Source of the DNA: Natranaerobius thermophilus JW/NM-WN-LF | Lineage (GTDB): Bacteria > Bacillota > Natranaerobiia > Natranaerobiales > Natranaerobiaceae | DNA: 64,000 nucleotides | Reading direction: 5' to 3' | Assembly (NCBI RefSeq): GCF_000020005.1 | Contig: NC_010718.1 | Span: 501,001 to 565,000 of the forward strand | Shown: positions 6,157 through 62,980 of the stretch, in pieces | Numbering within the stretch: the stretch's first letter is position 1 | How the letters are laid out: each line of letters starts with the position of its first letter | Program-made: the position numbers and the translations under genes | The notes under the pieces: model-generated | The model's input: the letters and a program-made list of their open reading frames with translations, nothing else | Told to the model about the DNA's origin: nothing | Databases searched by the model: none

Positions 6157-7878
6157 ATGAGTAGCAGAAAGTTATTTGTATTATTTCTGGCATTGATGTT
6201 TGCTACTGCTGTAGCCATCGGTGGCTGTGCACCTCCAGAAGAAGCTAAAGAGGAGGATCCAGAAGCAGAGGAAGAAGAAGAGGCTCCAGCAGAAGTAGAT
6301 AATCCTGCTGTAGAAAGACCTAATGAAATTGTAATTGGAGGTCCAGATCTAGAAGGAATTTTCAATCCAGTTTTATACAGTGGTGTTTATGACTCCTGGG
6401 TTTTAGGTATGATTTTTGATTCACTACTTACAGTAGATGAAAATGGACAGTTAACAACTGATCAGAGATCAGTTGCCAAAGATTATGAAATCTCAGAAGA
6501 TGGCACTGTATACACTTTCCACTTACGTGAAGGATGGGAATTTCACGATGGAGAAGAGATAACTGCCGAAGATGTGGCCTTTTCTTTAGAAGTTACTGCT
6601 CACCCTGATTACGACGGACCACGCTCCAGCTTTTCCGACGATATAGTGGGTGTAGATGAATTTCGAGAAGGAGAAACTGACGAGCTAGAAGGAATTACAG
6701 TAGAAGATGATTATACCTTGGTAGTTGAAGCTCAAGAACCTAGTGCTGATAACATATTTGATTTTGCAGTAATGATAATGCCAAAACATTATTATGATTT
6801 TGAAAACTATGAAGACTTCCAGGATTTAACAGACGACCCAATGGGAAGTGGTCCCTTCGAACTTGTAGAATACAGTCCGGATCAACATGCTATCTTAGAA
6901 TCCTTTGAAGACTATTACCATGGTGCACCAAATGTGGATCGAATAATCTACGAAGAAACTGAAACTGAACAACAAATTCCAATGGTTGAAACAGGAGAAG
7001 CTGATATTGTCCAGGTAAGTTCAACTCCAGAAAATATGGAAATGTTAGAAGATATAGACCATCAGGAAGCATTAACTTTCTTTGATAATGCCTATACTTA
7101 TATTGGTTTGAACCACGAAGATGAACACTTGCAGCATCAAGAGGTTAGGCAGGCATTAGCTTATGCCCTTGATATCGAAGCTTTCCTTGATGGAATGTTT
7201 GGAGATGAATTGGCTCAACCGATATACACTCCGTTTTCACCCGTATCATGGGCATATCCCGATGAAGACGATATGAACGATTATGCTTATGACCCTGATA
7301 AGGCCAATGAACTACTTGATGAAGCGGGTTATGAGTGGGATGACAATGAAGAGTATCGAGTAAATGAAGACGGAGAGAGACTATCCTTTACATGGGAAAC
7401 CATTGCTGACAACGAATGGTCCGAACATTTAACTACTCTAGCCTTAGAACAATGGCCACAAATAGGAGTAGAACTAGAAATCGAAAACTACGATTTCAAT
7501 ACCTTGACCGACAGAATTGATCAGGACCGCGGAGATGTAGATATGTGGAATATGGGTTGGTCACTATCAGCCGAACCCGATCCATCTAATATCTTTAGTG
7601 TAGAATATGCCGATGCTGGCTTAAACTACGGAATGTATCACAACGAAGAAGCAGAAGAATTGATGCAAGAAGGTCTTGAAACCTTTGATCAAGATGAAAG
7701 AGCAGAAGTTTACAATGAACTAGGTGTACTATTTAATGAAGATCTACCCTATATCTTTGTCTACAGTAACAAAGAGATTTGGTCCACAAATGACCGAGTT
7801 GAAAACTATGAACCAACTGCATTCCAACACTTGACATGGAATATCCACGAGTGGGAAGTAACAGACTACGAAGAATAA
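6157..7878 (+). CDS. ABC transporter substrate-binding lipoprotein, peptide/OppA (SBP_bac_5) family
   Basis: Extracytoplasmic solute-binding lipoprotein of 573 residues. Residues 1-24 form a lipoprotein signal ending in the lipobox AIGGC with the lipidated Cys at 24. A very acidic linker follows (about residues 25-50, mainly Glu/Asp/Ala/Pro), then the SBP_bac_5 fold beginning near ERPNEIVIGG. Length and composition match OppA/DppA proteins. The whole mature protein is rich in Asp/Glu, as in halophile surface proteins. ATG 6157 follows GAGGGGG. It heads a five-gene importer operon; a strong hairpin separates it from the first permease. The ligand (oligopeptide, dipeptide or other) cannot be read from sequence. 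Confidence 0.9.
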   Translation: MSSRKLFVLFLALMFATAVAIGGCAPPEEAKEEDPEAEEEEEAPAEVDNPAVERPNEIVIGGPDLEGIFNPVLYSGVYDSWVLGMIFDSLLTVDENGQLTTDQRSVAKDYEISEDGTVYTFHLREGWEFHDGEEITAEDVAFSLEVTAHPDYDGPRSSFSDDIVGVDEFREGETDELEGITVEDDYTLVVEAQEPSADNIFDFAVMIMPKHYYDFENYEDFQDLTDDPMGSGPFELVEYSPDQHAILESFEDYYHGAPNVDRIIYEETETEQQIPMVETGEADIVQVSSTPENMEMLEDIDHQEALTFFDNAYTYIGLNHEDEHLQHQEVRQALAYALDIEAFLDGMFGDELAQPIYTPFSPVSWAYPDEDDMNDYAYDPDKANELLDEAGYEWDDNEEYRVNEDGERLSFTWETIADNEWSEHLTTLALEQWPQIGVELEIENYDFNTLTDRIDQDRGDVDMWNMGWSLSAEPDPSNIFSVEYADAGLNYGMYHNEEAEELMQEGLETFDQDERAEVYNELGVLFNEDLPYIFVYSNKEIWSTNDRVENYEPTAFQHLTWNIHEWEVTDYEE

Positions 7879-7914
7879 TTAGAAATAAGTAGCTAAGATA
7901 GCGAGTACAACCCC

Positions 7915-7945
7915 ATCTGGGCATGTGCCACTCACATGCCCAGAT
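7915..7945 (+). terminator. Intercistronic hairpin between binding protein and permease
   Basis: Perfect 13-bp stem ATCTGGGCATGTG (7915-7927) / CACATGCCCAGAT (7933-7945) with a 5-base loop and no long T-run. Such hairpins after binding-protein genes usually stabilise that mRNA segment and lower expression of downstream permease genes; that role is inferred. Confidence 0.65.
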
Positions 7946-7989
7946 TATTAAAACAATTATTCAGGCTAAAATAAAGGGGTGATATACTT

Positions 7990-8955
7990 TTGGGAACTTA
8001 TATAGTTAGGCGAGTACTGATAATGATCCCTGTGTTACTAGGAATTACTGTCTTTCTCTTTAGCTTGTTTCAATTAGCACCTGGAAATCCCTTGGCTAGT
8101 TTACATCAAGACCCGGATATGACACCAGAAGCTCGAGAGCGTATTGAAGAACAATACGGATTAAATCAACCCGTACATATACAGTACTTAGATTATATGG
8201 GAAATCTATTCCAAGGCGATATGGGTATGTCGTTTCAGTACAGAAGAGATGTAAGTTTTCTCATAGCTCATAGAATAGGGCCTACTTTTATATTATCATT
8301 TGGTGCATTCTTATTAGCTCTAGTAGTAGCCATACCAGCAGGGATTATATCGGCTACCCGCCAATATACCAGTGTTGATAATGCCTTTACGGTGTTTGCC
8401 TTAATCGGTGTATCTATTCCTAACTTTTTCTTTGGATTGGTGATGATGCGCGTCTTCGCAGTTGCTCTGGGGTGGTTCCCCACTGGGGGAATGCAGACCT
8501 CTGGAGCGGACTTTCCCTTTCCGTGGAATATATTAGACGTAGCAAATCACCTTGTTTTACCTGCTATTGTATTAGGCCTTAGCAGTGCTGCACATTTTAT
8601 GCGTTACACCAGATCTAGTATGCTAGAAGTTATCAGACAGGATTATATTCGGACTGCCCGTGCTAAAGGTTTAAAAGAAAGAATCGTTATATACAAACAC
8701 GCTCTTAGAAATGCATTGATTCCAATTATCACTTTAATGGGCTTTCAGTTACCCATGCTCTTTTCAGGTTCACTAGTAGTAGAAATTGTCTTTGGCTGGC
8801 CTGGTATGGGAAGGTTGGCTTATAATGCAGTTATGCAGCGTGACTATCCACTAATGATGGGAGTAAACTTGTTCCTTGCCATATTTATATTACTCGGAAA
8901 TCTACTAGCTGATATTGCCTATGCCTTTGTAGATCCCAGAATCAGGTATGATTAA
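7990..8955 (+). CDS. oppB: Peptide ABC transporter permease, OppB/DppB family
   Basis: Integral membrane permease of 321 residues with about six membrane segments, the first in residues 8-28. The cytoplasmic EAA loop is seen in DYIRTARAKGLKERIV, which docks onto the ATPases. The N-terminal motif with YGLNQPVHIQYL is typical of OppB/DppB. TTG start at 7990 lies 8 bases after AGGGGTGAT. It pairs with the OppC-type permease that follows and receives substrate from the binding protein upstream. Confidence 0.92.
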   Translation: MGTYIVRRVLIMIPVLLGITVFLFSLFQLAPGNPLASLHQDPDMTPEARERIEEQYGLNQPVHIQYLDYMGNLFQGDMGMSFQYRRDVSFLIAHRIGPTFILSFGAFLLALVVAIPAGIISATRQYTSVDNAFTVFALIGVSIPNFFFGLVMMRVFAVALGWFPTGGMQTSGADFPFPWNILDVANHLVLPAIVLGLSSAAHFMRYTRSSMLEVIRQDYIRTARAKGLKERIVIYKHALRNALIPIITLMGFQLPMLFSGSLVVEIVFGWPGMGRLAYNAVMQRDYPLMMGVNLFLAIFILLGNLLADIAYAFVDPRIRYD

Positions 8956-9017
8956 TTTCTTTAAAAAATAATTTATTTATAATACTTGATATCTGTATGC
9001 CTAAAGGGGGGAATGAC

Positions 9018-9932
9018 TTGGCTAAAAATGAACTGAATGAAAGTACAAGTCAAGAAGTTCAATCTCATGGCTTGTCTGAGGAAGTTGAAAGTCCTATTAA
9101 ACTTATATGGAGACGCTTTAAGAGAAATAGATTAGCTTTGATCGGGCTGATTGTTTTATTAATACTGGTTTTTGGAGCGGTTTTTGCTCCATTTTTGACG
9201 CCCCATGATAGGGATACTATTGACTATGCTAATGCCGATGCCGAGCCAGATAGTGAACACATTCTAGGGACCGACGACAGGGGCAGAGATATGTTTACCA
9301 GGCTTTTGTATGCAGGTAGAGTTTCCTTATCTGTGGGTATTTTTGCTACTTTACTGCGGATTTTGATCGGTGTAACTTTGGGAGGTATCGCAGGTTACTA
9401 CGGAGGAGCAGTTGATAATGTTATCATGCGGATAGCCGACGTCTTTATGTCCTTTCCATTTTTACCAATTGCCTTAACTTTCGTCGCCATACTGGGACCA
9501 AGTATTTACAATATCATGCTGGTAATAGCAATTATTGGTTGGCCGGGTATCTGCAGGATTGTAAGAGCGGAAATTCTATCCTTGAGAGAACAAGAATTTA
9601 TTGAAGCTGCTAAAGCTCTAGGTCTTAGTGACCGTACCCAAATAATAAAACACTTGATTCCCAATACTATGGCTCCAATTATCGTTTCGGCTACTTTAGG
9701 TATAGCGGGTGCGATATTAACTGAATCATTTCTCAGCTATTTGGGATTAGGGGTAAGTCCACCAACTCCCACCTGGGGCAATTTGCTATCTGCTGCCCAA
9801 GAATCCTATATTATTCGAAATAGATGGTGGCAGTGGGTACCACCGGGTATTATGATTTTCTTGGCTGTTATGAGTCTAAACTTACTGGGAGATGGGCTGA
9901 GAGATGCTCTTGATCCTAAACTTAAAGAGTAG
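9018..9932 (+). CDS. oppC: Peptide ABC transporter permease, OppC/DppC family
   Basis: Second permease, 304 residues. An N-terminal hydrophilic stretch is followed by SPIKLIWRRFKRNRLALIG leading into the first membrane segment, the OppC N-terminal domain. The typical HILGTDDRGRDMFTRLLYAG and an EAA loop (EFIEAAKALGLSD) follow. TTG 9018 is chosen over ATG 8997 because the SD AAAGGGGGG (9003-9010) lies between them. The stop is 12 bases before the ATPase gene. Confidence 0.92.
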   Translation: MAKNELNESTSQEVQSHGLSEEVESPIKLIWRRFKRNRLALIGLIVLLILVFGAVFAPFLTPHDRDTIDYANADAEPDSEHILGTDDRGRDMFTRLLYAGRVSLSVGIFATLLRILIGVTLGGIAGYYGGAVDNVIMRIADVFMSFPFLPIALTFVAILGPSIYNIMLVIAIIGWPGICRIVRAEILSLREQEFIEAAKALGLSDRTQIIKHLIPNTMAPIIVSATLGIAGAILTESFLSYLGLGVSPPTPTWGNLLSAAQESYIIRNRWWQWVPPGIMIFLAVMSLNLLGDGLRDALDPKLKE

Positions 9933-9944
9933 GGGGTGCACTTT

Positions 9945-10928
9945 TTGTCCGACACACTTTTGGAAGTAAAGGGTTTACAGACCTATTTTTATACAGAAGA
10001 TGGCACCGTTAAAGCTGTGGACGGAGTAGACTTTCACGTAAATCGCGGAGAAATTTTAGGAATTGTCGGTGAATCAGGATGTGGAAAAAGTGTCAGTAAC
10101 ATGTCGATATTGAGACTCATCCAAGATCCACCGGGGAAAATAGTAGGTGGTGAAATTAACTTCGAAGGTACTAATTTGCTAGAGTTACCAGAAAATAAAA
10201 TGAGAAATATTCGTGGTAATGATATTGCTATGATTTTTCAGGAACCCATGACATCACTAAACCCTGTCTTTACAGTGGGAGATCAAATTATGGAAGCATT
10301 ACTGCTTCACAGAAATATGTCTATGGAAGAAGCACGCAATCATGCCGTTGAGATGTTAAAAACAGTTGGCATTCCCCGTGCCAATGAAGCCATTGATGAG
10401 TATCCGCATCAGTTTAGTGGTGGTATGAGACAAAGAGCTATGATCGCCATGGCACTATCTTGTAATCCTAGTCTACTACTGGCTGACGAACCTACCACAG
10501 CTTTGGATGTTACTATCCAAAAACAGATTTTAGAGCTCATTAAGGATATGAAAGAACAGTATGACACTGGAATAACCCTTATAACTCACGATTTAGGGGT
10601 AATTGCAGATATGGCTGACCGGGTTGTAGTTATGTATGCTGGCAAAGTTGTAGAACAAGCTGATATTTTTGAAATCTTTGATAAGCCACTTCATCCTTAT
10701 ACAAGTGGATTACATGAATCGATACCAACAATGGATACAGAAGCCGAGCGGTTAAAAGTTATTAGAGGAGTTGTTCCCAATCCATTGACTATGCCAGAAG
10801 GTTGTCCCTTCCATCCCAGGTGTGATCATGAAATGACTAAATGTAGAGAAAAGATGCCACCCCTTATGGATTTAAATGGTCGCCAGGTGAGATGCTGGTT
10901 GTATTCGGAAGATAAGGAGGTGGGCTAA
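9945..10928 (+). CDS. oppD: Peptide ABC transporter ATP-binding protein, OppD/DppD family
   Basis: ABC ATPase of 327 residues that energises peptide import. Walker [10 protein letters not shown]-loop [10 protein letters not shown], signature FSGGMRQR, Walker [13 protein letters not shown] and the C-terminal oligopeptide-ABC extension with Cys motif ([14 protein letters not shown]) typical of OppD/DppD. TTG 9945 is preferred over the in-frame GTG 9936, which overlaps the SD GGGGGTG. It ends 3 bases before the partner ATPase gene. Confidence 0.92.
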
Positions 10929-21603: not shown

Positions 21604-21704
21604 GTCTTTTATTAAAATATAGCTTATGATAAAATACTTTATTGTGATGAGTTTGTTATATTTTTTATCTAAATCGAGAAATCTTTAACAAGGGAGGGTA
21701 AGTG

Positions 21705-23027
21705 ATGGCTAATCAAACTTTTCCAGGTGGCATTTCTCCTGGTCATTTTAAAGATACTAAGGACAAGCCTATAGAATCCTTGGAACTTCCCAAAAAAGTT
21801 TATATACCTATGGAGCAGCATATTGGTGCCCCCTGCACTCCAACTGTGGAAGTTGGGGATTATGTAAAAACAGGTCAAAAGATTGGAGAAAGTGATAAAT
21901 TTGTATCAGCTCCAGTCCATGCCAGCATATCTGGTGAAGTTGTGGACATTGTTCAGTATAATCATCCTTTAGGTAACACATCTCAAACTGTAGTAATTGA
22001 ATCTGATGGGCAGGATGAACCGGATTATCAGGATGAAGAACAAACAGTTAATTTGGATAGCTTCTCAGCTGAAGAAATTAAAAATGTAGTCAAAGAAGCC
22101 GGAATCGTCGGCTTAGGAGGTGCTACATTTCCAACTCATGTTAAAATTTCTCCTCCTGAGGACAAGCCTATTGATACGGTGTTGATTAATGGTGCTGAAT
22201 GTGAACCTTTTTTAACATCAGACCACAGGCTCATGGTTGAGCAAGCAGAAAAAATTATATTTGGGTTGCGGGCTATTATGAAAGCCGTCAACTGTGACAG
22301 AGGCATAATTGCCATTGAAGATAATAAACCTGATGCTGTTGAGGCTATGAATTCCTTGGTAACTGATGATGACTCTTTAGAAGTGATGACTTTTGAAACT
22401 AAATATCCTCAGGGAGCGGAAAAACAGCTGATCAAAGCAGCCTTAGATAGAGAGGTTCCCTCAGGCGGACTCCCCATGGATGTAGGTTGTGTTGTAAATA
22501 ATACCGGCACTGCTTTAGCTGTGGCTGATGCTTTAAGGACTAATAAACCAATTTTGGAGAGAGTTGTAACTATTTCTGGTCCTGGAATCGAACAATCGGG
22601 TAACTTTATGGTTAGACTTGGAACCCTGGCTTCAGATTTGATTGAACAGCTAGGTGGAATGGGGGATCAAACGAGAAAAATCATTATGGGTGGCCCTATG
22701 ATGGGAATTAGTCAGCCAAATGCTGATTTTCCAGTGATTAAAGGAACATCCGGTGTCTTACTTCTAACTGATCAAGAGGTACAGATTTTTGAAGAAAGAC
22801 CATGTATAAACTGTGGCCGTTGTGTTGACAGTTGTCCGATTTCTTTATTGCCCAATTTACTAGGGACTTTTATGGAGCATGAACGCCCAGACAAAGCAGA
22901 GGATTTTAATGCTCTCGACTGTATTGAATGTGGTTGTTGTACCTATATCTGCCCTGCTCGACGTCCCCTAGTACATTATATCAGGGTGGCTAAAGGCGAA
23001 ATAATGGCAAAACGGCAAAACAAGTAA
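21705..23027 (+). CDS. rnfC: Rnf complex subunit RnfC
   Basis: Peripheral cytoplasmic NADH-binding subunit of the Rnf ferredoxin:NAD+ oxidoreductase, 440 residues. N-terminal biotinyl/barrel-sandwich-like segment HIGAPCTPTVEVGDYVKTGQ, NADH/FMN-binding region GIVGLGGATFPTHVK, NGAECEPFLTSDHR, and two C-terminal [4Fe-4S] motifs CINCGRCVDSCP and CIECGCCTYICPA. ATG 21705 is behind GGGAGGGTAAG. First gene of the C-D-G-E-A-B cluster. A second RnfC is encoded at 60520. Confidence 0.95.
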   Translation: MANQTFPGGISPGHFKDTKDKPIESLELPKKVYIPMEQHIGAPCTPTVEVGDYVKTGQKIGESDKFVSAPVHASISGEVVDIVQYNHPLGNTSQTVVIESDGQDEPDYQDEEQTVNLDSFSAEEIKNVVKEAGIVGLGGATFPTHVKISPPEDKPIDTVLINGAECEPFLTSDHRLMVEQAEKIIFGLRAIMKAVNCDRGIIAIEDNKPDAVEAMNSLVTDDDSLEVMTFETKYPQGAEKQLIKAALDREVPSGGLPMDVGCVVNNTGTALAVADALRTNKPILERVVTISGPGIEQSGNFMVRLGTLASDLIEQLGGMGDQTRKIIMGGPMMGISQPNADFPVIKGTSGVLLLTDQEVQIFEERPCINCGRCVDSCPISLLPNLLGTFMEHERPDKAEDFNALDCIECGCCTYICPARRPLVHYIRVAKGEIMAKRQNK

Positions 23028-23061
23028 ATTCTAATTAAGAAGAGATTGGAGGGTAGTTAGA

Positions 23062-23988
23062 ATGGCGAATAAATTAGTAGTATCTTCTTCACCACACTTG
23101 CGAACACCTGAATCAGTAGACAGTATAATGAGAGATGTTTTGATTGCTCTGATTCCACCATTAATAGTCAGTGCCTGGTTATTTAGTTTATATTCAATTT
23201 GGATGGTAGTTGTGGCTACGGTGGTTTGCATGGTGAGCGAAGCAGTTATGGTTCATAAATCTGTAAGTCTTTCTAAAATTAAAGGCGATTGGAGTGCCGC
23301 CGTAACAGGGGTTATTTATGGATTGAGCTTGCCGCCTGGAACTCCGTGGTGGGTAGTAGCCATTGGAGCGTTTATAGCTATCTCTGTAGGAAAACATGTA
23401 TTTGGTGGATTAGGCTACAATATTTTCAATCCAGCACTTGTAGGGCGAGCTTTTGTTGTGCTAGCATGGCCCAGTTACTTAACACATTGGACAGAGCCAT
23501 TCCAAGCCGTTGATTTTGATTCAGCAACAGCGGCTACTCCACTAGTAGTGGATTCCGATGCGGTATCCTTGTCTGATTTGTTTGTAGGAACCACTGGGGG
23601 TTCTATTGGTGAGACATCAATATTAGCAATTTTACTAGGTGCTGTATTCCTGCTGGTAAAAGGTCATATTGATATTAGAATACCGGCAGCATATATGGGT
23701 GCTGTAGCTGTAATGGCCTTAGTAACTGGCCAGGATATTATGTATCATTTATTTAGCGGCAGTGCTTTTTTTGCTGCGGTTTATATGGCTACTTGTATGG
23801 TAACCTCACCTTATACTAAGACTGGTAAATTGATATTTGGTTTCGGTTGTGGCCTCTTCACAGCATTGTTCAGGATGTTCGGATCTGCACCTGAAGGAGT
23901 GACATATGCAATCTTGCTGATGAATGCCCTAGTGCCATTTATTAACAAGTATACCAGGCCCAAAATTTATGGGGAGGTGTCCAACTAA
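23062..23988 (+). CDS. rnfD: Rnf complex subunit RnfD
   Basis: Membrane subunit (308 residues, many membrane segments) related to NqrB. The covalent FMN site fits the ApbE target pattern Dxx(S/T)xAT, seen here as DSATAATPL at about residues 153-161; it differs from the common SGAT form. GGLGYNIFNPALVGRAF is a family hallmark. Its stop is immediately followed by the rnfG ATG. RnfD relays electrons from RnfG to RnfC while helping ion translocation. Confidence 0.94.
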   Translation: MANKLVVSSSPHLRTPESVDSIMRDVLIALIPPLIVSAWLFSLYSIWMVVVATVVCMVSEAVMVHKSVSLSKIKGDWSAAVTGVIYGLSLPPGTPWWVVAIGAFIAISVGKHVFGGLGYNIFNPALVGRAFVVLAWPSYLTHWTEPFQAVDFDSATAATPLVVDSDAVSLSDLFVGTTGGSIGETSILAILLGAVFLLVKGHIDIRIPAAYMGAVAVMALVTGQDIMYHLFSGSAFFAAVYMATCMVTSPYTKTGKLIFGFGCGLFTALFRMFGSAPEGVTYAILLMNALVPFINKYTRPKIYGEVSN

Positions 23989-24522
23989 ATGAAACTTAAT
24001 GATCTGTTAAAATTAGGTGGAGTTTTAATGGTGGTTGCTGCGCTCTCAGCCACCTTGCTAGGTTTTTCCAATTCTTATACTGATCCCATCATCCAGGAAA
24101 GGCGAATGGAGCAACTGGAAAACTCCATGTTTGAATTCTTTCCTGAAGCAGAAGAATTTATCATCGACGAGATTGATGAACAAGAATATTATGTAGTGAA
24201 AACAGAGGGTGAAGTGAGCGGAGTAGCTACTGTAGTTGATCCAGGAGGATACGGAGGAAGAATTGAAATGATGGTTGCTGCCGATGCAGAAGGTACCGTT
24301 AGTGGTGTTGATATATTATCTCATGCTGAAACACCTGGACTTGGTAGTGAAATAGAGGAACCCGAGTGGTTACAACAATTTATCGGTTTATCTGCCTCAC
24401 AAGATATCATGGGAGAGGAAAAAGTAGATATAATCTCAGGTGCTACAGTGAGCAGTGAAGCTGTAATAGAAGGTGTCGAATTGGCCCTTGACAATATAGT
24501 TGAAGATTATTTAGGAAACTAA
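23989..24522 (+). CDS. rnfG: Rnf complex subunit RnfG
   Basis: 177-residue FMN-binding subunit with one N-terminal membrane segment (about 9-28) and an extracytoplasmic FMN_bind domain. The covalent attachment site is DIISGATVSS (target Thr). The mature domain is strongly acidic. It starts at the base after the rnfD stop, so translation is coupled. ApbE, needed for FMN attachment, is encoded at 33614. Confidence 0.94.
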   Translation: MKLNDLLKLGGVLMVVAALSATLLGFSNSYTDPIIQERRMEQLENSMFEFFPEAEEFIIDEIDEQEYYVVKTEGEVSGVATVVDPGGYGGRIEMMVAADAEGTVSGVDILSHAETPGLGSEIEEPEWLQQFIGLSASQDIMGEEKVDIISGATVSSEAVIEGVELALDNIVEDYLGN

Positions 24523-24560
24523 TGAAAACTGACTAAATGCAGGAAACGGGGGTGACTTTA

Positions 24561-25181
24561 TTGAAATTTAGTGAAGCTTTTACGCAAGGTTTACTAAAAG
24601 AAAATGGTTTGTATAGGCAACTTTTAGGACTGTGCCCAGCCTTGGCTGTTACACAAACTGCTATGAATAGCTTGGGTTTAGGTGCCGCTACAATGGCTGT
24701 TTTGCTTGCTGCCAATATAGTGATTTCTTTAGTTAAAAATCTTATTCCCAAAAAAATAAGAATTCCTTCATATATAGTCATTATAGCAACCTTTGTTACT
24801 ATAGTAGACATGTTCTTAGAAGCTTTCACACCGGATCTTCACGCTGCTTTGGGAATATTTATTCCATTAATTGTCACCAACTGCTTAATCTTGGGACGAG
24901 CTGAGGCCTTTGCCTCCAAAGAAAAAGTAACTTCAGCCATTGGAGACGCTTTGGGTATGGGTATTGGCTTTACCTTGGGGTTACTGTCCCTAGGAGTAGT
25001 TAGAGAGCTATTCGGTAAAGGTAGCTTGTTTGGTTGGCCTGTACTCCATGAACTATTCGGGGCTTTTGGATTAGAATTTCAGCCAGCCTTGATTTTCATC
25101 CAACCAGCTGGTGCATTCTTTGCCCTAGGTATCCTTCTAGCCCTAATGAATATAGTCTACAAGCGTTTGCAGTATGATTAA
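24561..25181 (+). CDS. rnfE: Rnf complex subunit RnfE
   Basis: 206-residue membrane subunit with six segments. It forms, with RnfA, the intramembrane Fe-S site that passes electrons across the membrane. LLGLCPALAVTQTA and IVTNCLILGRAEAFA provide the conserved Cys residues. TTG 24561 is preferred over ATG 24537 since the SD GGGGGTGA lies between them and gives the usual N-terminus. A 109-base gap separates it from rnfA. Confidence 0.93.
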   Translation: MKFSEAFTQGLLKENGLYRQLLGLCPALAVTQTAMNSLGLGAATMAVLLAANIVISLVKNLIPKKIRIPSYIVIIATFVTIVDMFLEAFTPDLHAALGIFIPLIVTNCLILGRAEAFASKEKVTSAIGDALGMGIGFTLGLLSLGVVRELFGKGSLFGWPVLHELFGAFGLEFQPALIFIQPAGAFFALGILLALMNIVYKRLQYD

Positions 25182-25290
25182 TAAGAAACGGCTGCTATTA
25201 CTTAAAGTACCTTGTAAGTCGATATAGTAATACAGGGAGAGTAAGTGATTACTGAGTTGGTAGTAACTAGAGTGGAAAGGGGGCTTAATA

Positions 25291-25866
25291 ATGGAAGAAT
25301 TATTGGCGATATTTATTGGCGCCATTTTTGTCAATAATATAGTATTGATTCAGTTTTTGGGAATATGTCCTTTTTTAGGAGTTTCCAAAAAAGTAGAAAC
25401 AGCAGTGGGAATGGGCTTAGCCGTAACTTTTATTATGACCTTGGCTTCAATTATTACCTGGTTAATCCATGAAATGATTTTGGTGCCCTTTGAAGCTGAG
25501 TATCTAGAATATGTTGCATATATTCTAGTAATTGCTTCCCTAGTACAGTTTATTGAGATGTTACTTGAAAAGGTAAGTCCTAATTTATATAAAGCACTTG
25601 GGATCTATTTGCCTTTAATAACTACCAACTGTGCTATTTTAGGCCTAGCTTTGCAAAACATTTTAGAAGGTTACAACTTACTAGAATCTACAATTCATGG
25701 CGTTGGAGCTGGCATAGGCTTTACTGTAGCCCTGGTAGTTATGGCAGGTATTAGAGAACAGTTGGAATTCGCTAAAATGCCCAATTTATTTCAAGGTGCT
25801 TCAGTGGCATTTATTATAGCAGGAATTCTTTCCATTGCTTTTACTGGTTTTCTTGGTGTAATATAA
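25291..25866 (+). CDS. rnfA: Rnf complex subunit RnfA
   Basis: 191-residue partner of RnfE with six membrane segments in inverted topology. Conserved FLGICPFLGVSKK and LITTNCAILGLAL carry the Cys ligands of the shared Fe-S centre. ATG 25291 is behind GGAAAGGGGG. The order after RnfE and before RnfB is standard. Confidence 0.94.
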   Translation: MEELLAIFIGAIFVNNIVLIQFLGICPFLGVSKKVETAVGMGLAVTFIMTLASIITWLIHEMILVPFEAEYLEYVAYILVIASLVQFIEMLLEKVSPNLYKALGIYLPLITTNCAILGLALQNILEGYNLLESTIHGVGAGIGFTVALVVMAGIREQLEFAKMPNLFQGASVAFIIAGILSIAFTGFLGVI

Positions 25867-25904
25867 TGAATAGAGGTAGAGGTTGAACTTGGGAGGTGAA
25901 ATAA

Positions 25905-26711
25905 TTGTATGCAGCAGTACTGAGTCTAGGAGGATTAGGGCTGTTTTTTGGCCTGGTGCTAGCTTATGCTTCCCAAAAATTCGCAGTAGAGGTAGATCCA
26001 AAAGTGGAAGCCATTGATGAGAGCTTACCTGGCGCTAATTGTGGGGCTTGTGGTTATCCCGGTTGCGGCGCTTTTGCAGAAGCTGTAGCTAATGGAGAAG
26101 CTCCTATTGACGGGTGTACTCCAGGCGGAGAAAATACAGCCCAGACTATTGCGGACATTTTAGGAGTTAGCCATGAGGAATCTGAGGAAAGATATGTAGC
26201 CGAAGTGGCATGCCTTGGTGGAAGTGAACATTGTAAGGAACAATTTGATTACGATGGTGTTCAGGACTGCAGAGCAGCTATGATGTATGCTAACGGATTT
26301 AAAGCTTGCGATTATGGTTGCTTAGGTTTAGGTACTTGTGAACACATCTGTCCTTTTGATGCCATTGAAATGCAAGATAATGGGATACCTCATATTGATC
26401 CAGAAAAATGTACAGGATGTAATAAGTGTGCTAATACTTGCCCCAAAGATGTCATTAAAATGATTAATGCAAATACTAAACACCATGTTAGATGTAATTC
26501 ATGTGACAAGGGGAAAACAGTTAGACAGGTTTGTGAAGTTGGTTGTATCGGATGTGGTGTTTGTGCCAAGGTTTGTCCTGTTGATGCTATTACTATTGAA
26601 AATAACCTGGCCTATATAGACAGCCACGAATGCGTTAACTGTGGAAAATGTAAGGAAAAATGCCCTAGAGATTGTATAACTAGTGATCTAGAATATACTA
26701 CAAAGGCATAA
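25905..26711 (+). CDS. rnfB: Rnf complex subunit RnfB
   Basis: Ferredoxin-accepting subunit, 268 residues: N-terminal membrane anchor (about 3-22), then the Fe-S domain LPGANCGACGYPGCGAF with a later Cys (DGCTPGG). Several [4Fe-4S] motifs follow (CEHICPFDAI, CTGCNKCANTCPKDV, CIGCGVCAKVCPVDAI, CVNCGKCKEKCPRDC). TTG 25905 follows GGGAGGTG. A strong terminator ends the operon directly downstream. Confidence 0.95.
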   Translation: MYAAVLSLGGLGLFFGLVLAYASQKFAVEVDPKVEAIDESLPGANCGACGYPGCGAFAEAVANGEAPIDGCTPGGENTAQTIADILGVSHEESEERYVAEVACLGGSEHCKEQFDYDGVQDCRAAMMYANGFKACDYGCLGLGTCEHICPFDAIEMQDNGIPHIDPEKCTGCNKCANTCPKDVIKMINANTKHHVRCNSCDKGKTVRQVCEVGCIGCGVCAKVCPVDAITIENNLAYIDSHECVNCGKCKEKCPRDCITSDLEYTTKA

Positions 26712-33613: not shown

Positions 33614-34675
33614 ATGAATACAAACAAATCTCAATCTAGAGCCAAGCTAATTAAACTGTTAACTATATTTACAATACTGCTAGTTATGATGACTTCATTG
33701 ATGGCTTGTGACTACGAAGTAGAAGAATATAGAGATACAGGAATCTATATGGACACCAGGGTTGATATTATTGTTGAAGCTAGGAATGAGTCTATTGCCG
33801 ATGAAGCAATTGATGCAGCTAAAGATGAAATCAATCGCCTAGAAAACAAAATGTCAAGACATGTAGCTGGTAGTGAAATAGATGAAGTTAATCGCAATGC
33901 TGGTGAACAACCTATTCAAGTATCCCAAGAAACCTGGGAAGTAGTTGCTGAATCAATAGAATTAGGTGAACAGATGGACGGGTATTTTGATGTAACCATT
34001 GCTCCCCTGTTAACACTTTGGGGTTTTGGAGAAGATGAACATCACTTACCAAGTGATGAAGAAATTTCTGAATTACTTCCTCTTGTAAATCATAATGAAA
34101 TTGAAATGGATGAGGAAAAACACACTATTTATTTACCTGACTCAGATATGAGGCTTGATTTAGGTGGAGCTGCAAAGGGTTATATTGTAGATAGAGCCAC
34201 CGAGGTTTTAGCAGAACATGATATCGAATCTGGTTTGGTCGATGCAGGTGGAGATATCAATACAGTTGGTCCAAAACACGATGACGAGCCTTGGAGGATA
34301 GGTGTTACTCACCCCAGAGATCGACAAAATTACTTTGCAGTTTTAGAATTGAATGGAGAAGCTGTGGACACTTCTGGGGATTATGAGCGGTATTTTGAAG
34401 AGGACGGGGTTAAATATCATCACATTCTCGATCCTTATACCGGTTACCCAACCGAAGGTATGATTAGTGCCACAGTTATGGCAGATAATGCTATTAGGGC
34501 GGATATTTTGTCAACTGGAGCTTTTGGACTGGGTTTAGAAGGAAGTTTAGAACTTTTTGAAGAACTGGATGACGTTGAAGCTATTATAGTAGATGATAAC
34601 GGTGAATATCATATGACTTCTGGTTTGGATGGGATTGAAATTCCCGATCAATACAAAGATCAACAGTTAAAATAA
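33614..34675 (+). CDS. apbE: FAD:protein FMN transferase ApbE
   Basis: 353-residue lipoprotein (lipobox LMAC at about residue 33) that attaches FMN through a phosphoester to Thr in Dxx(S/T)GAT sites. Motifs: YMDTRVDI near the start of the mature protein, MRLDLGGAAKGYIVDRA (FAD/Mg site), GLVDAGGDINTVG and HHILDPYTGYPTEG. ATG 33614 follows AAGGAGG. RnfG and both RnfD proteins encoded in this window carry candidate target sites. Confidence 0.94.
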   Translation: MNTNKSQSRAKLIKLLTIFTILLVMMTSLMACDYEVEEYRDTGIYMDTRVDIIVEARNESIADEAIDAAKDEINRLENKMSRHVAGSEIDEVNRNAGEQPIQVSQETWEVVAESIELGEQMDGYFDVTIAPLLTLWGFGEDEHHLPSDEEISELLPLVNHNEIEMDEEKHTIYLPDSDMRLDLGGAAKGYIVDRATEVLAEHDIESGLVDAGGDINTVGPKHDDEPWRIGVTHPRDRQNYFAVLELNGEAVDTSGDYERYFEEDGVKYHHILDPYTGYPTEGMISATVMADNAIRADILSTGAFGLGLEGSLELFEELDDVEAIIVDDNGEYHMTSGLDGIEIPDQYKDQQLK

Positions 34676-59373: not shown

Positions 59374-59398
59374 GCGCACCCTTTGGTGCGCCTTTTTT
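59374..59398 (+). terminator. Terminator of leuS
   Basis: GCGCACC (59374-59380) / GGTGCGC (59385-59391), CTTT loop, then CTTTTTT. Confidence 0.88.
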
Positions 59399-59631: not shown

Positions 59632-60486
59632 ATGAAAGAGAACAAGGGGTTTAAGCTCAAAAGACGTCAATTTATTCAGTCTATGGCTGGTACAGGCTTA
59701 TTAGCAGGTCTTAGCCTTTCAGCTCCGCGCATAGCTGAAGCTGGTGAAAATAACGGATCCGAGTATGCAATGATGGTTGACAAAACGGAATGCGTTGGTT
59801 GTAACGCTTGTACCAGGGTGTGTTCAGAAGCTTATGAATTGTCTGAAGGTATTTTAAGAACTGAGATCCACAGATTCAAAGATGATGAAGACGAAGAATA
59901 CTTTAAGAAAAATGCTTGTCTTCACTGTAATGAGGCTAGCTGTGTCATGGCTTGTCCTGCAGATGCAATTTATAAAGATGATTTGGGATTAACCCAAATT
60001 GATAACAGTATTTGTGTTAATTGTGGTTATTGCGTATCTGCTTGCCCTTACAACGCTATTAAGTATGATCGCAAAAAAGGTGTTAATGAGAAATGTACTT
60101 TATGTACTGAACTTATTAATGCTGGAAGTGAACCTTTGTGTAAGCAAGAATGTCCTGTAGATGCTATTTACTTTGGTACTAGAGAAGAAATGCTAGAGCT
60201 GGGACGAGAAAAAGTTTCCGATTTAAAAGACCAGGGATATGATAAAGCCATGTTATATGGTGATGATGAATTTGATGGTTTGGCAGTTTTAGGAGTTTTA
60301 CATGATGAGCCCCAAGAGTACGAGTTGCCAAAGGATCCTCAAATACCTATGCAATTAAGGGTATGGAATCAAATACCTTTTGCACCAGCCTTTTTAGTAG
60401 TAGGTGGGGCGGCTATGGTATTTAATTTCTTACATTCAAGAAAAACCAAAGCCGAATTAGAACAACCAGAAGAAGATGAAGAATAA
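59632..60486 (+). CDS. Tat-exported, membrane-anchored 4x[4Fe-4S] ferredoxin-like protein (HybA/NrfC type)
   Basis: 284 residues. Twin-arginine signal KRRQFIQ at residues 10-16 plus hydrophobic h-region; cleavage likely near AEAGE (about 37). Four cluster motifs: Cys54-57-60-64 (CVGCNACTRVC), CLHCNEASCVMAC, CVNCGYCVSAC, and CTLCTEL...CKQEC. This is the fold of HybA, DmsB and NrfC electron-transfer subunits. A C-terminal membrane helix (about 248-268) anchors it. No molybdoenzyme or hydrogenase catalytic subunit is encoded beside it; its partners are RnfC2 and RnfD2. ATG 59632 follows GGGAGGGAG. Confidence 0.88.
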   Translation: MKENKGFKLKRRQFIQSMAGTGLLAGLSLSAPRIAEAGENNGSEYAMMVDKTECVGCNACTRVCSEAYELSEGILRTEIHRFKDDEDEEYFKKNACLHCNEASCVMACPADAIYKDDLGLTQIDNSICVNCGYCVSACPYNAIKYDRKKGVNEKCTLCTELINAGSEPLCKQECPVDAIYFGTREEMLELGREKVSDLKDQGYDKAMLYGDDEFDGLAVLGVLHDEPQEYELPKDPQIPMQLRVWNQIPFAPAFLVVGGAAMVFNFLHSRKTKAELEQPEEDEE

Positions 60487-60519
60487 ATCTTAATTTTACT
60501 TAACTAGGGGGTGGAGAGT

Positions 60520-61836
60520 ATGGAAGCTAAAACTTTTCCGGGAGGAGCATATATACCTCATTATAAATTTACTGACGACAAGCCGATTGAGGACATGTCT
60601 ATTCCCGAAGAGATAGTAATTCCCTTAGCCCAGCATATTGGATCCCCATGTGAACCGCTGGTAAAAGTTGGTGATAGGGTTGAAGTTGGTCAAAAAATTG
60701 GTGATTCAGAGGAATATATTACCGCACCAGTACATGCCAGCGTTTCAGGAGAAGTTGTGGCTATAGAGGAAAGGCCGTTTTTTGAAGGGGATGAAGTTGA
60801 AAGCATTGTCATTAAGCCTGATAGTGAACAGCAGGAGTTTTCTTATGATGAGAAGAATATTGAAGATATGAGCTTAGATGATATGAAAGATAGAATTAGA
60901 GAAGCAGGAGTAGTAGGAATGGGTGGTGCAGCTTTCCCGACTTATGTAAACATCAATCAATCTAAGCCCATCGATAGTTTGTTGATCAATGGAGCTGAAT
61001 GTGAACCATTTCTAACATGCGATCATAGACAAATGGTCGAGCGCAGTGAGGAATTAGTTATCGGAGCAGAAATTCTAATGAATATTATAGGTGCCAAAAA
61101 ATGCTATTTTGGTATTGAAGAAAATAAACCTGATGCAATTGATGCAGTTTCCAAGCAAATCGAGGGTAAAGACGGTATGGAAGTTGTTCCTCTTAAGACA
61201 AAATATCCTCAAGGATATAAAGTTAATGTAATCCATGCATGCACCGGTCGAGATGTTCCTCGGGGAGTCAGATCCGCTGACTTAGGTTGTATAGTTAGAA
61301 ATGTAGGAACCACTATTGCTACCTATGAAGCCGTCAAATACGGTAAACCATTAATGGAACGAGTTGTAACTGTAAGTGGTTATAATATTCCTGAAGCTGG
61401 TAACTACAATATTAAAATTGGCACACCCGTTGAGCATGTTTTAAGAGAGTGTGGAGTAGATAACTTTGAAAATCAGAAGGTGATTCTTGGTGGGCCAATG
61501 ACTGGTACCGCTGTCAAAGATATCAGATCTTCAGTAGTAAAAAATAGCACAGGTTTATTACTATTTCCTGAAGATATGACCTGGGACTACACCGACTACA
61601 ATGAATGTGTCCGTTGTGGTAAATGTGTAGAACGATGTCCTGTTCATCTATATCCCAATAAGATAGGGATGTATGCTGAACACAAACAATACAGTAAAGC
61701 CGAGGAATGGGATATAATGGACTGTGGTGAGTGTGGTACATGTGTATACTTCTGTCCTGCTAACCGACCAATTTTAATGTGGATCCAGCAAGTTAAGCCC
61801 ACTGTTAAAAGGAGACAACGGCAACGAAGTAAATAG
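60520..61836 (+). CDS. Second RnfC homologue
   Basis: 438 residues, full length. Opening EAKTFPGGAYIPHYKF and HIGSPCEPLVKVGDRVEVGQ match RnfC, as do the nucleotide/FMN region GVVGMGGAAFPTYVN, NGAECEPFLTCDHR, and [4Fe-4S] motifs CVRCGKCVERCPVHLYP and CGECGTCVYFCPANRP. It is intact, clearly diverged from the RnfC at 21705, and lacks RnfG/E/A/B neighbours. ATG 60520 follows AGGGGGTGG. Cytoplasmic NAD(H)-reacting role is inferred from the family. Confidence 0.9.
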   Translation: MEAKTFPGGAYIPHYKFTDDKPIEDMSIPEEIVIPLAQHIGSPCEPLVKVGDRVEVGQKIGDSEEYITAPVHASVSGEVVAIEERPFFEGDEVESIVIKPDSEQQEFSYDEKNIEDMSLDDMKDRIREAGVVGMGGAAFPTYVNINQSKPIDSLLINGAECEPFLTCDHRQMVERSEELVIGAEILMNIIGAKKCYFGIEENKPDAIDAVSKQIEGKDGMEVVPLKTKYPQGYKVNVIHACTGRDVPRGVRSADLGCIVRNVGTTIATYEAVKYGKPLMERVVTVSGYNIPEAGNYNIKIGTPVEHVLRECGVDNFENQKVILGGPMTGTAVKDIRSSVVKNSTGLLLFPEDMTWDYTDYNECVRCGKCVERCPVHLYPNKIGMYAEHKQYSKAEEWDIMDCGECGTCVYFCPANRPILMWIQQVKPTVKRRQRQRSK

Positions 61837-61904
61837 ATTAGAAGTTAGAACCTGAGTATTGTGAAGAAATCGTGTTGTAATTTTTGGAGAAGGGGGAATC
61901 CACA

Positions 61905-62882
61905 GTGGAATCGAATAAAACCATTGTTTCACCGTCACCGCACTTAAAAGCCGATCTCTCTGTGTCAAAATCTATGAGAGATGTAATTATCGCTTTAATA
62001 CCTATAATCCTTGTAACTTTATATTTCAATGGTATGCAGGCTTTGTCCTTAATAGCAGTTTCAGTTGTCACAGCAGCGGTGACAGAAGTGGTATTTCGAA
62101 AAATAATGGGGAAACAACCATCCTTGGCAGATTTAAGTGCAGTTCTTACAGGGTTATTTGTAGCTTTAGTGTTACCAGTTGCAACATCACCTATTAGGGC
62201 CATAATAGCTACTGTTATAGCAGTAGGTATAGCCAAAGAATTAATGGGTAGTTTGGGTTGGAACCGATATAACCCTGCTTTATTTGGGTATGTAACTACA
62301 TTGTTGATGGGAGCATGGCTTCCATTCATGGAAACTGGATTTCAGTCACTACCGGCTTTAGATTCAGTTAGCGGGGCCACCCCTCTGGCTATGTTGACTC
62401 AAGGGATGGAAATGCCCGGTTATGGAAGTATGTTGTTAGGACATGGCGAGGCAGGGTCTCTTGCTGAAGCTTCTGCCTTAGCAGTTATAATTGGCGGCTT
62501 ATATTTACTCTATAAGAAACATATTAACTGGAGAACTCCAGTGGGAATGATAGCTACAGTATTCATCATCAGCTTGATTTTTGGCGTTGATCCAATTTAT
62601 GCAGTTTTAGGTGGAGGAGTTCTTTTTGGAGCTTTCTTCATGGCAACTGACTGGGTTACTTGCCCTATCAATAATAAAGGTAAACTAGTCTTTGGAATTT
62701 GTGTCGGCTTACTAATTTGCATATTTAGATATGCACTACCAGCCACAGGTGGGGTTGCTTTTTCTATCTTAATTATGAATGGCTTCACACCAATGATAGA
62801 GAAATTTACCCAGCACCCATCTTTTATGGAGCCACGTAAGACTTCTGAACCTGCTTCCGGAGGTAAAACGGCTAGTAGCTAA
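61905..62882 (+). CDS. Second RnfD homologue
   Basis: 325 residues with about ten membrane segments. Starts IVSPSPHLKADLSVSKSM like RnfD; GSLGWNRYNPALFGYV and the covalent-FMN site DSVSGATPLAM are present, the latter a better consensus than in RnfD1. GTG 61905 follows GAAGGGGGA. Last gene of the three-gene unit before a strong terminator. It probably carries electrons between RnfC2 inside and the anchored Fe-S protein outside. Confidence 0.9.
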   Translation: MESNKTIVSPSPHLKADLSVSKSMRDVIIALIPIILVTLYFNGMQALSLIAVSVVTAAVTEVVFRKIMGKQPSLADLSAVLTGLFVALVLPVATSPIRAIIATVIAVGIAKELMGSLGWNRYNPALFGYVTTLLMGAWLPFMETGFQSLPALDSVSGATPLAMLTQGMEMPGYGSMLLGHGEAGSLAEASALAVIIGGLYLLYKKHINWRTPVGMIATVFIISLIFGVDPIYAVLGGGVLFGAFFMATDWVTCPINNKGKLVFGICVGLLICIFRYALPATGGVAFSILIMNGFTPMIEKFTQHPSFMEPRKTSEPASGGKTASS

Positions 62883-62936
62883 AAATTTAGATTTGCAATG
62901 AATTTTTAATAGGGGATTTCATGAAGACTAAAGCAT

Positions 62937-62971
62937 AAAACACGGCAGGTTTATACCACCTGCCGTGTTTT
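62937..62971 (+). terminator. Terminator of the mini-Rnf operon
   Basis: 14-bp perfect stem AAAACACGGCAGGT (62937-62950) / ACCTGCCGTGTTTT (62958-62971). Confidence 0.88.
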
Positions 62972-62980
62972 ATAAGGATA

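Follow-up and report, generated by a model that had tools for sequence, protein, structure and literature searches.

In the Rnf complex (RnfABCDGE; solved from Acetobacterium woodii, 9eri, and Clostridium tetanomorphum, 7zc6), the cofactors follow one another in the order RnfG flavin mononucleotide (FMN), RnfD FMN on the outer side of the membrane, RnfD riboflavin on the inner side, two [4Fe-4S] clusters of RnfC, RnfC FMN and NAD+ (PMC12174285), so that RnfC and RnfD together make up a complete NAD(H) half. In FdnGHI, Psr/Phs and Hyd-2 (HybOABC), a catalytic subunit exported by twin-arginine translocation (Tat) and a four-cluster B subunit with a C-terminal helix are combined with a cytochrome b, NrfD-type or HybB membrane subunit. 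Here, we describe a three-gene unit at positions 59,632 to 62,882 of a 64,000-nucleotide stretch of the Natranaerobius thermophilus JW/NM-WN-LF genome (contig NC_010718.1, positions 501,001 to 565,000; hereafter the window), which encodes an exported Fe-S protein, an RnfC (RnfC2) and an RnfD (RnfD2). Based on sequence comparisons, these three proteins probably make up the membrane part through which an exported oxidoreductase is linked to NAD(H).

The unit shares with Rnf the cofactor motifs and fold of RnfC and RnfD, that is, the NAD(H) half, but it lacks RnfA, RnfB, RnfE and RnfG, has no ferredoxin side and carries a Tat-exported FdnH-type Fe-S protein in the delivery place of the RnfG FMN. 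Relatives of the unit have in common with FdnGHI, Psr/Phs and Hyd-2 the exported catalytic subunit and the anchored B subunit, whereas the window holds the B subunit only; RnfC and RnfD replace cytochrome b, the NrfD type or HybB, and the inner partner should thus be NAD(H), not quinone. The Nqr/Rnf-like systems (Meheust et al. 2021, PMC8238504; 2024 preprint, PMC10979944) likewise connect NAD(P)H with extracytosolic redox proteins by a short path built on NqrB/RnfD, but they consist of an NqrB–NqrF fusion and an FMN-bind protein and have no RnfD flavinylation site, in contrast to the separate RnfC, the kept FMN site and the Fe-S protein of the window. The closest precedent is the syntroph metagenome-assembled genome (MAG) unFirm_1, in which RnfC and RnfD beside a formate dehydrogenase were called a truncated Rnf (Frank et al. 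2016, PMC5080403), and in which RnfC and the formate dehydrogenase were detected in the metaproteome (PMC5080403). This system, which was not interpreted there as a recurrent complex, is apparently the formate dehydrogenase member of the RnfCD family described below; no dehydrogenase lies beside the window form. In genome papers on soda-lake syntrophs, an exported formate dehydrogenase is left with no membrane partner described, and one of these papers also lists an 'Rnf' with only C, D and G found (PMC6295475, PMC10608574). No description of the recurrent RnfCD family, or of its PhsA, [NiFe], hydrogenase-fusion or window forms, was found in the open-licence literature. An earlier note on this DNA knew of no described complex with exactly this composition; RnfC and RnfD beside a formate dehydrogenase had, however, been noted once.

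The three genes are intact and tightly packed on the plus strand between leuS and a gene for a SpoU-family methylase. The open reading frame (ORF) of the Fe-S protein occupies 59632–60486 (284 amino acids). The ORF of RnfC2 spans 60511–61836, with a likely start at ATG 60520 (60520–61836, 438 amino acids), and that of RnfD2 spans 61884–62882, with a likely start at GTG 61905 (61905–62882, 325 amino acids); both starts lie slightly inside the mechanical ORFs and were chosen by ribosome-binding sites in the DNA. With these starts, the gaps are 33 bp (Fe-S protein to RnfC2) and 68 bp (RnfC2 to RnfD2). An intrinsic terminator-like hairpin follows leuS at 59374–59391 on the plus strand, and a terminator-like inverted repeat of 17 pairs at 62934–62974 closes the unit. 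The ORFs and the hairpins on both sides therefore bear out the earlier description of three intact, tightly spaced genes with their own terminator. As had also been claimed, no rnfA, rnfB, rnfE or rnfG was found beside the trio; the same operon holds no molybdopterin catalytic subunit, and the three-gene unit contains no other membrane-protein gene (NrfD type or cytochrome b) and no separate FMN-bind gene. An Rnf operon broken by assembly was ruled out, since the unit is bounded by hairpins, the 3.2 Mb genome is in three contigs and the arrangement recurs elsewhere.

RnfC2 was identified as RnfC by TIGR01945 (485 bits, E=1e-145, above the curated cut-off) and by its match to A. woodii RnfC (9eri_C, E=4e-107). 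It retains the FMN/NADH motifs GMGGAAFP, NGAECEP and YPQG and two C-terminal [4Fe-4S] motifs. RnfD2, an integral membrane flavoprotein, was identified by TIGR01946 (E=2e-69, above the curated cut-off); its domain content is PF03116 alone (297 bits), with no fused NqrF-type NAD-binding domain. It matches A. woodii RnfD (9eri_D, E=5e-60), and its predicted model matches the same chain at a template modelling (TM) score of 0.81. The codon of the predicted FMN-bearing Thr (SGATPL) lies at 62379–62381 on the plus strand, and this column holds T in 46 and S in 3 of 49 RnfDs of the module type, compared with T in 32 and S in 3 of 35 canonical RnfDs. The sole ApbE flavin transferase of the genome, also in the window (33749–34588, plus strand; genome 534749–535588), would be expected to attach FMN to RnfD2. 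Two residues mark the module type: E119, present in 49/49 module RnfDs and in one canonical row, and W257, present in 49/49 and in 5/35, respectively. In an alignment comparison, the NqrB gate residues F338/F342 did not separate module from canonical RnfDs.

The Fe-S protein matches FDH-beta, HybA and NrfC profile models, all below the model cut-offs. Its nearest solved structure is Escherichia coli FdnH (1kqf_B, E=1.9e-44), with an alignment that spans the C-terminal helix, and its predicted model (pLDDT, predicted local distance difference test, 81.8) gave 1kqf_B as the top Foldseek match. The protein matches PhsB-type B subunits at about 40–50%, and the 16 Cys of its four [4Fe-4S] clusters are invariant among relatives. 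Residues 1–38 form a Tat signal peptide, KRRQFIQ followed by a hydrophobic stretch (59632–59745, plus strand), and residues 248–276 form a C-terminal transmembrane helix (60373–60459, plus strand; hydropathy 1.77; helix 251–276 in the model). The motif, the 16 Cys, the helix and the two TIGR models agree with the earlier view of a Tat-exported, C-terminally anchored 4x[4Fe-4S] protein together with an RnfC and an RnfD.

To place the trio among its relatives, 399 genomes of the phylum were examined, and the RnfDs nearest to RnfD2 were found in similar clusters without rnfABEG. A survey with one RnfD query over about 85,000 species then gave 79 best loci; these are the top-scoring set, and the fractions below describe relatives of RnfD2, not RnfDs at large. 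Gene content was counted by tblastn; long antisense frames overlie genes in L085, L143, L150 and L109 (RnfC/RnfD). In 75 of the 79 loci, rnfA/E was missing, and in 74 rnfG was missing too; the remaining four were canonical rnf. The earlier note had proposed a genome search for such an Fe-S protein beside rnfC and rnfD, and the conserved neighbours do not include rnfABEG. Of the 75 non-canonical loci, 57 had an exported oxidoreductase, in most cases a formate dehydrogenase with selenocysteine. By catalytic type, the 79 loci comprised formate dehydrogenase (41), PhsA/PsrA-type (9), both of these (2), PhsA-type with a hydrogenase–RnfC fusion (2), [NiFe] hydrogenase (3, of which L150 also has formate dehydrogenase), B subunit only (10), loci cut by a contig end (7), RnfG only (1) and canonical rnf (4). 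The motif RRx[FLVIM] was present in 40/40 complete catalytic subunits checked, and a C-terminal hydrophobic segment in 57/57 B subunits. The trio is widely conserved, but in most relatives it belongs to a larger complex with a catalytic subunit.

The loci come mainly from Bacillota, many of them MAGs that include soda-lake sediment sets, and also from Actinomycetota and a few Chloroflexota; the single Desulfovibrio, Thioalkalivibrio and Hydrogenedentota records are MAGs in which binning errors are possible. Most relatives' B subunits have no counterpart of the Tat signal, and the related PhsB-type subunits lack it. A Tat-bearing B subunit was found only in the [NiFe]-hydrogenase loci L109 (10028–13682) and L117 (10055–13683), which consist of RnfC–RnfD, a Tat-bearing HybA-like protein, the hydrogenase small and large subunits and maturation genes; both read as an exported hydrogenase linked to RnfCD. 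Modules without a visible catalytic gene also occur at L129 and L090. At L090 (140–1766; a short contig of a Tepidimicrobium MAG), the genes for the Fe-S protein, RnfC and RnfD are immediately preceded by a TatC-like gene; a Tat signal on the B subunit of this locus was only apparent and arose from a wrong start.

Phylogenetic trees, which the earlier note had also suggested, separated the module copies from the canonical ones. In the RnfD tree (88 rows), the two were split by a branch with SH-aLRT (Shimodaira–Hasegawa-like approximate likelihood ratio test) support of 100, and the RnfC tree (82 rows) gave the same split with support of 86; both were quick searches without an outgroup and show a split, not a rooted clade. 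The closest neighbours of the window RnfD2 are copies of the PhsA type (support 93 and 81). A recent duplication of the local rnfC and rnfD was ruled out by both trees, and with the wide conservation of the module this upholds the claim of an added system that is neither a replacement nor a recent local copy. The split was less clean once the RnfG-only locus L157 was added. This locus (6875–9984, Dethiobacter MAG) reads RnfG–RnfC–RnfD without rnfA, rnfB or rnfE and may represent another short form; its RnfD sits on a long branch, and its position in the tree is not firm.

Independent evidence on the electron path of RnfC is provided by three loci, L066 (9992–13015), L088 (5881 onwards; Natronincola peptidivorans) and L098 (4553 onwards), in which [FeFe] hydrogenase and RnfC form a single fusion protein of 1007–1027 amino acids. 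The genes next to the fusion encode RnfD, a PhsA-type enzyme and the corresponding B subunit. In the fusion protein, the hydrogenase retains its H-cluster motifs, whereas in the RnfC part both [4Fe-4S] motifs remain and those for FMN/NADH have been lost. This pattern is expected if the RnfC clusters feed RnfD and the RnfC FMN is the NADH port only. The recurrence with several exported enzymes and the hydrogenase–RnfC fusion together suggest that RnfC plus RnfD is a membrane module on the NAD(H) side that can be reused and that takes the place of the usual quinone-binding subunit.

The same genome holds several other Rnf and redox systems. The canonical rnfCDGEAB operon identified by family profiles lies in the window at 21702–26711 on the plus strand and is a separate system, as had been stated; a second complete rnf operon is located at about 1.14 Mb. 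A fourth full-length RnfD at 2.785 Mb belongs to an FdhAB–RnfCD locus, in which the genes for RnfC and RnfD lie downstream of those for a selenocysteine formate dehydrogenase with a Tat signal and for its B subunit; the nearest solved relatives of this dehydrogenase are periplasmic formate dehydrogenases and FdnG, and tRNA-Sec and TatC are both encoded in the genome. A route through NrfD or menaquinone was ruled out: family searches of the genome found neither NrfD nor the futalosine-pathway family PF02621, and the best match to the menaquinone marker MenD reached 74.7 bits, far under the cut-off of 244 bits.

In the proposed mechanism, electrons would pass from NADH to the RnfC FMN, the two [4Fe-4S] clusters and the riboflavin of RnfD on the inner side, and then from the covalent FMN of RnfD on the outer side through the four [4Fe-4S] clusters of the Fe-S protein to an active site outside. 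The Fe-S protein would stand in for RnfG at the outer FMN of RnfD, and RnfG, RnfA, RnfE and RnfB would be dispensable because electrons enter or leave this FMN via the Fe-S protein. RnfCD would thereby substitute for the quinone-binding NrfD, HybB or cytochrome b subunit and link the external enzyme to NADH without quinones. The path may be reversible, with the direction set by potentials. Electron flow from formate outside to NAD+ inside is downhill by textbook potentials; such inward flow would build membrane potential, and that potential could in turn drive the reverse flow, from NADH to CO2 outside. A reversible formate/NADH path would suit those syntrophs for which an exported formate dehydrogenase but no formate transporter is reported (PMC6295475, PMC10608574). 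The window module probably carries electrons from cellular NADH to an external enzyme or back, and the NAD(H)-linked transmembrane path proposed in the earlier note remains the best reading. If true, it would explain how quinone-less anaerobes can link NADH to formate, sulfur, hydrogen or arsenate chemistry outside the membrane.

The window trio has no catalytic gene beside it, and its Fe-S protein is equipped with an export signal of its own, so that the partner of the trio is probably encoded elsewhere; the trio is most likely a module without a local catalytic partner and not a complete three-subunit machine. The genome encodes only a handful of candidate Tat substrates, namely, the formate dehydrogenase (which has an RnfCD of its own), ArrA, an Fe-S protein encoded next to an aldehyde:ferredoxin oxidoreductase-like gene, the Fe-S protein of the window trio and a single weak match. 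A [NiFe] hydrogenase partner was sought in this genome and none was found. The exported ArrA (665 kb) matches Shewanella ArrA 6cz7_A over its full length (1011 bits) and scores 1165 bits against the NCBIfam ArrA model, below the cut-off of 1600. Its neighbours are ArrB and a TorD-like chaperone, with no membrane subunit; two-subunit Arr enzymes elsewhere receive their electrons via other membrane proteins (PMC2500031). By elimination only, ArrAB is the best candidate partner, an assignment that we make tentatively and that has somewhat less than an even chance of being right.

Several points weigh against the proposed module and its partner. Adjacency and co-inheritance are no proof of a complex, and no biochemistry on any RnfCD-exported enzyme complex was found in the open-licence literature. 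The exact window form, a Tat-bearing PhsB-type protein without a catalytic gene, was found at no other surveyed locus. The Tat motif scored 14.5 bits with TIGR01409 (cut-off 16.7), which is weak by the model and clear by eye. The partnership with ArrAB has no support from proximity, and ArrB is already the four-cluster subunit of ArrA.

One proposal adds to the module without competing with it, namely, that the family itself pumps Na+ through RnfD alone. Whether Na+ passes through RnfD or RnfA/E is debated, and one proposal places the path in RnfD (PMC12174285). Also in favour of the pump, the acidic position matching NqrB D397 is largely conserved in module RnfDs, as is E56, which aligns with NqrB E144. 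However, the rival model assigns Na+ transport to RnfA/E (PMC12174285), neither of which is present here, and the same residues are kept in canonical RnfD and may be structural, leaving the pump doubtful. An RnfD complex without RnfA/E is a natural experiment on the Na+ route in Rnf. The most far-reaching form, in which RnfC and RnfD would be self-sufficient and quinone-free, would serve at least three kinds of exported enzyme would conserve energy (by Na+ or otherwise) via RnfD alone and, in this organism, would let NADH drive the reduction of arsenate or a similar acceptor outside, appears unlikely as a whole.

Among true alternatives, the trio might be a self-contained electron exit that works without a catalytic subunit, its Fe-S protein feeding soluble or mineral acceptors outside. 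The missing catalytic gene, the Fe-S protein's own Tat signal, the few Tat substrates and the lack of a [NiFe] hydrogenase would fit such an exit; the resemblance of the Fe-S protein to the B subunits of catalytic complexes, above all the PhsB type, and the catalytic subunit in most relatives make it quite improbable. Still less probable is a relic, the remainder of a PhsAB–RnfCD system now being lost after its catalytic subunit: RnfD2 does group with PhsA-type relatives that retain the catalytic gene, and a decayed rnf operon lies beside arrAB, but all three ORFs are full length with cofactor residues kept, and decay does not explain the presence of a Tat signal that related PhsB-type subunits lack. 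That RnfC2 and RnfD2 are spare parts swapped into the six-subunit canonical Rnf under some condition is hardly credible, as the shared folds and cofactor motifs are outweighed by the separate groups in both trees, the group-specific E119 and W257 and the joining of RnfC to hydrogenase in relatives. The NAD(H)-linked module of an exported oxidoreductase thus remains our preferred reading.

Two further regions of the genome were noted. At about 665,167–677,700, arrA, arrB, torD and a moeA-like gene adjoin genes for a PhnD-type binding protein, a sensor kinase and a regulator; beside arrAB are fragments of RnfD and RnfA left over from a third rnf operon, together with an intact RnfG-like protein of 580 amino acids, which appears to carry several FMN-binding domains. 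At about 2,422,500–2,426,800, genes for a Tat-exported Fe-S protein of 226 amino acids, the aldehyde:ferredoxin oxidoreductase-like protein and a ferredoxin-like protein of 347 amino acids adjoin one another.

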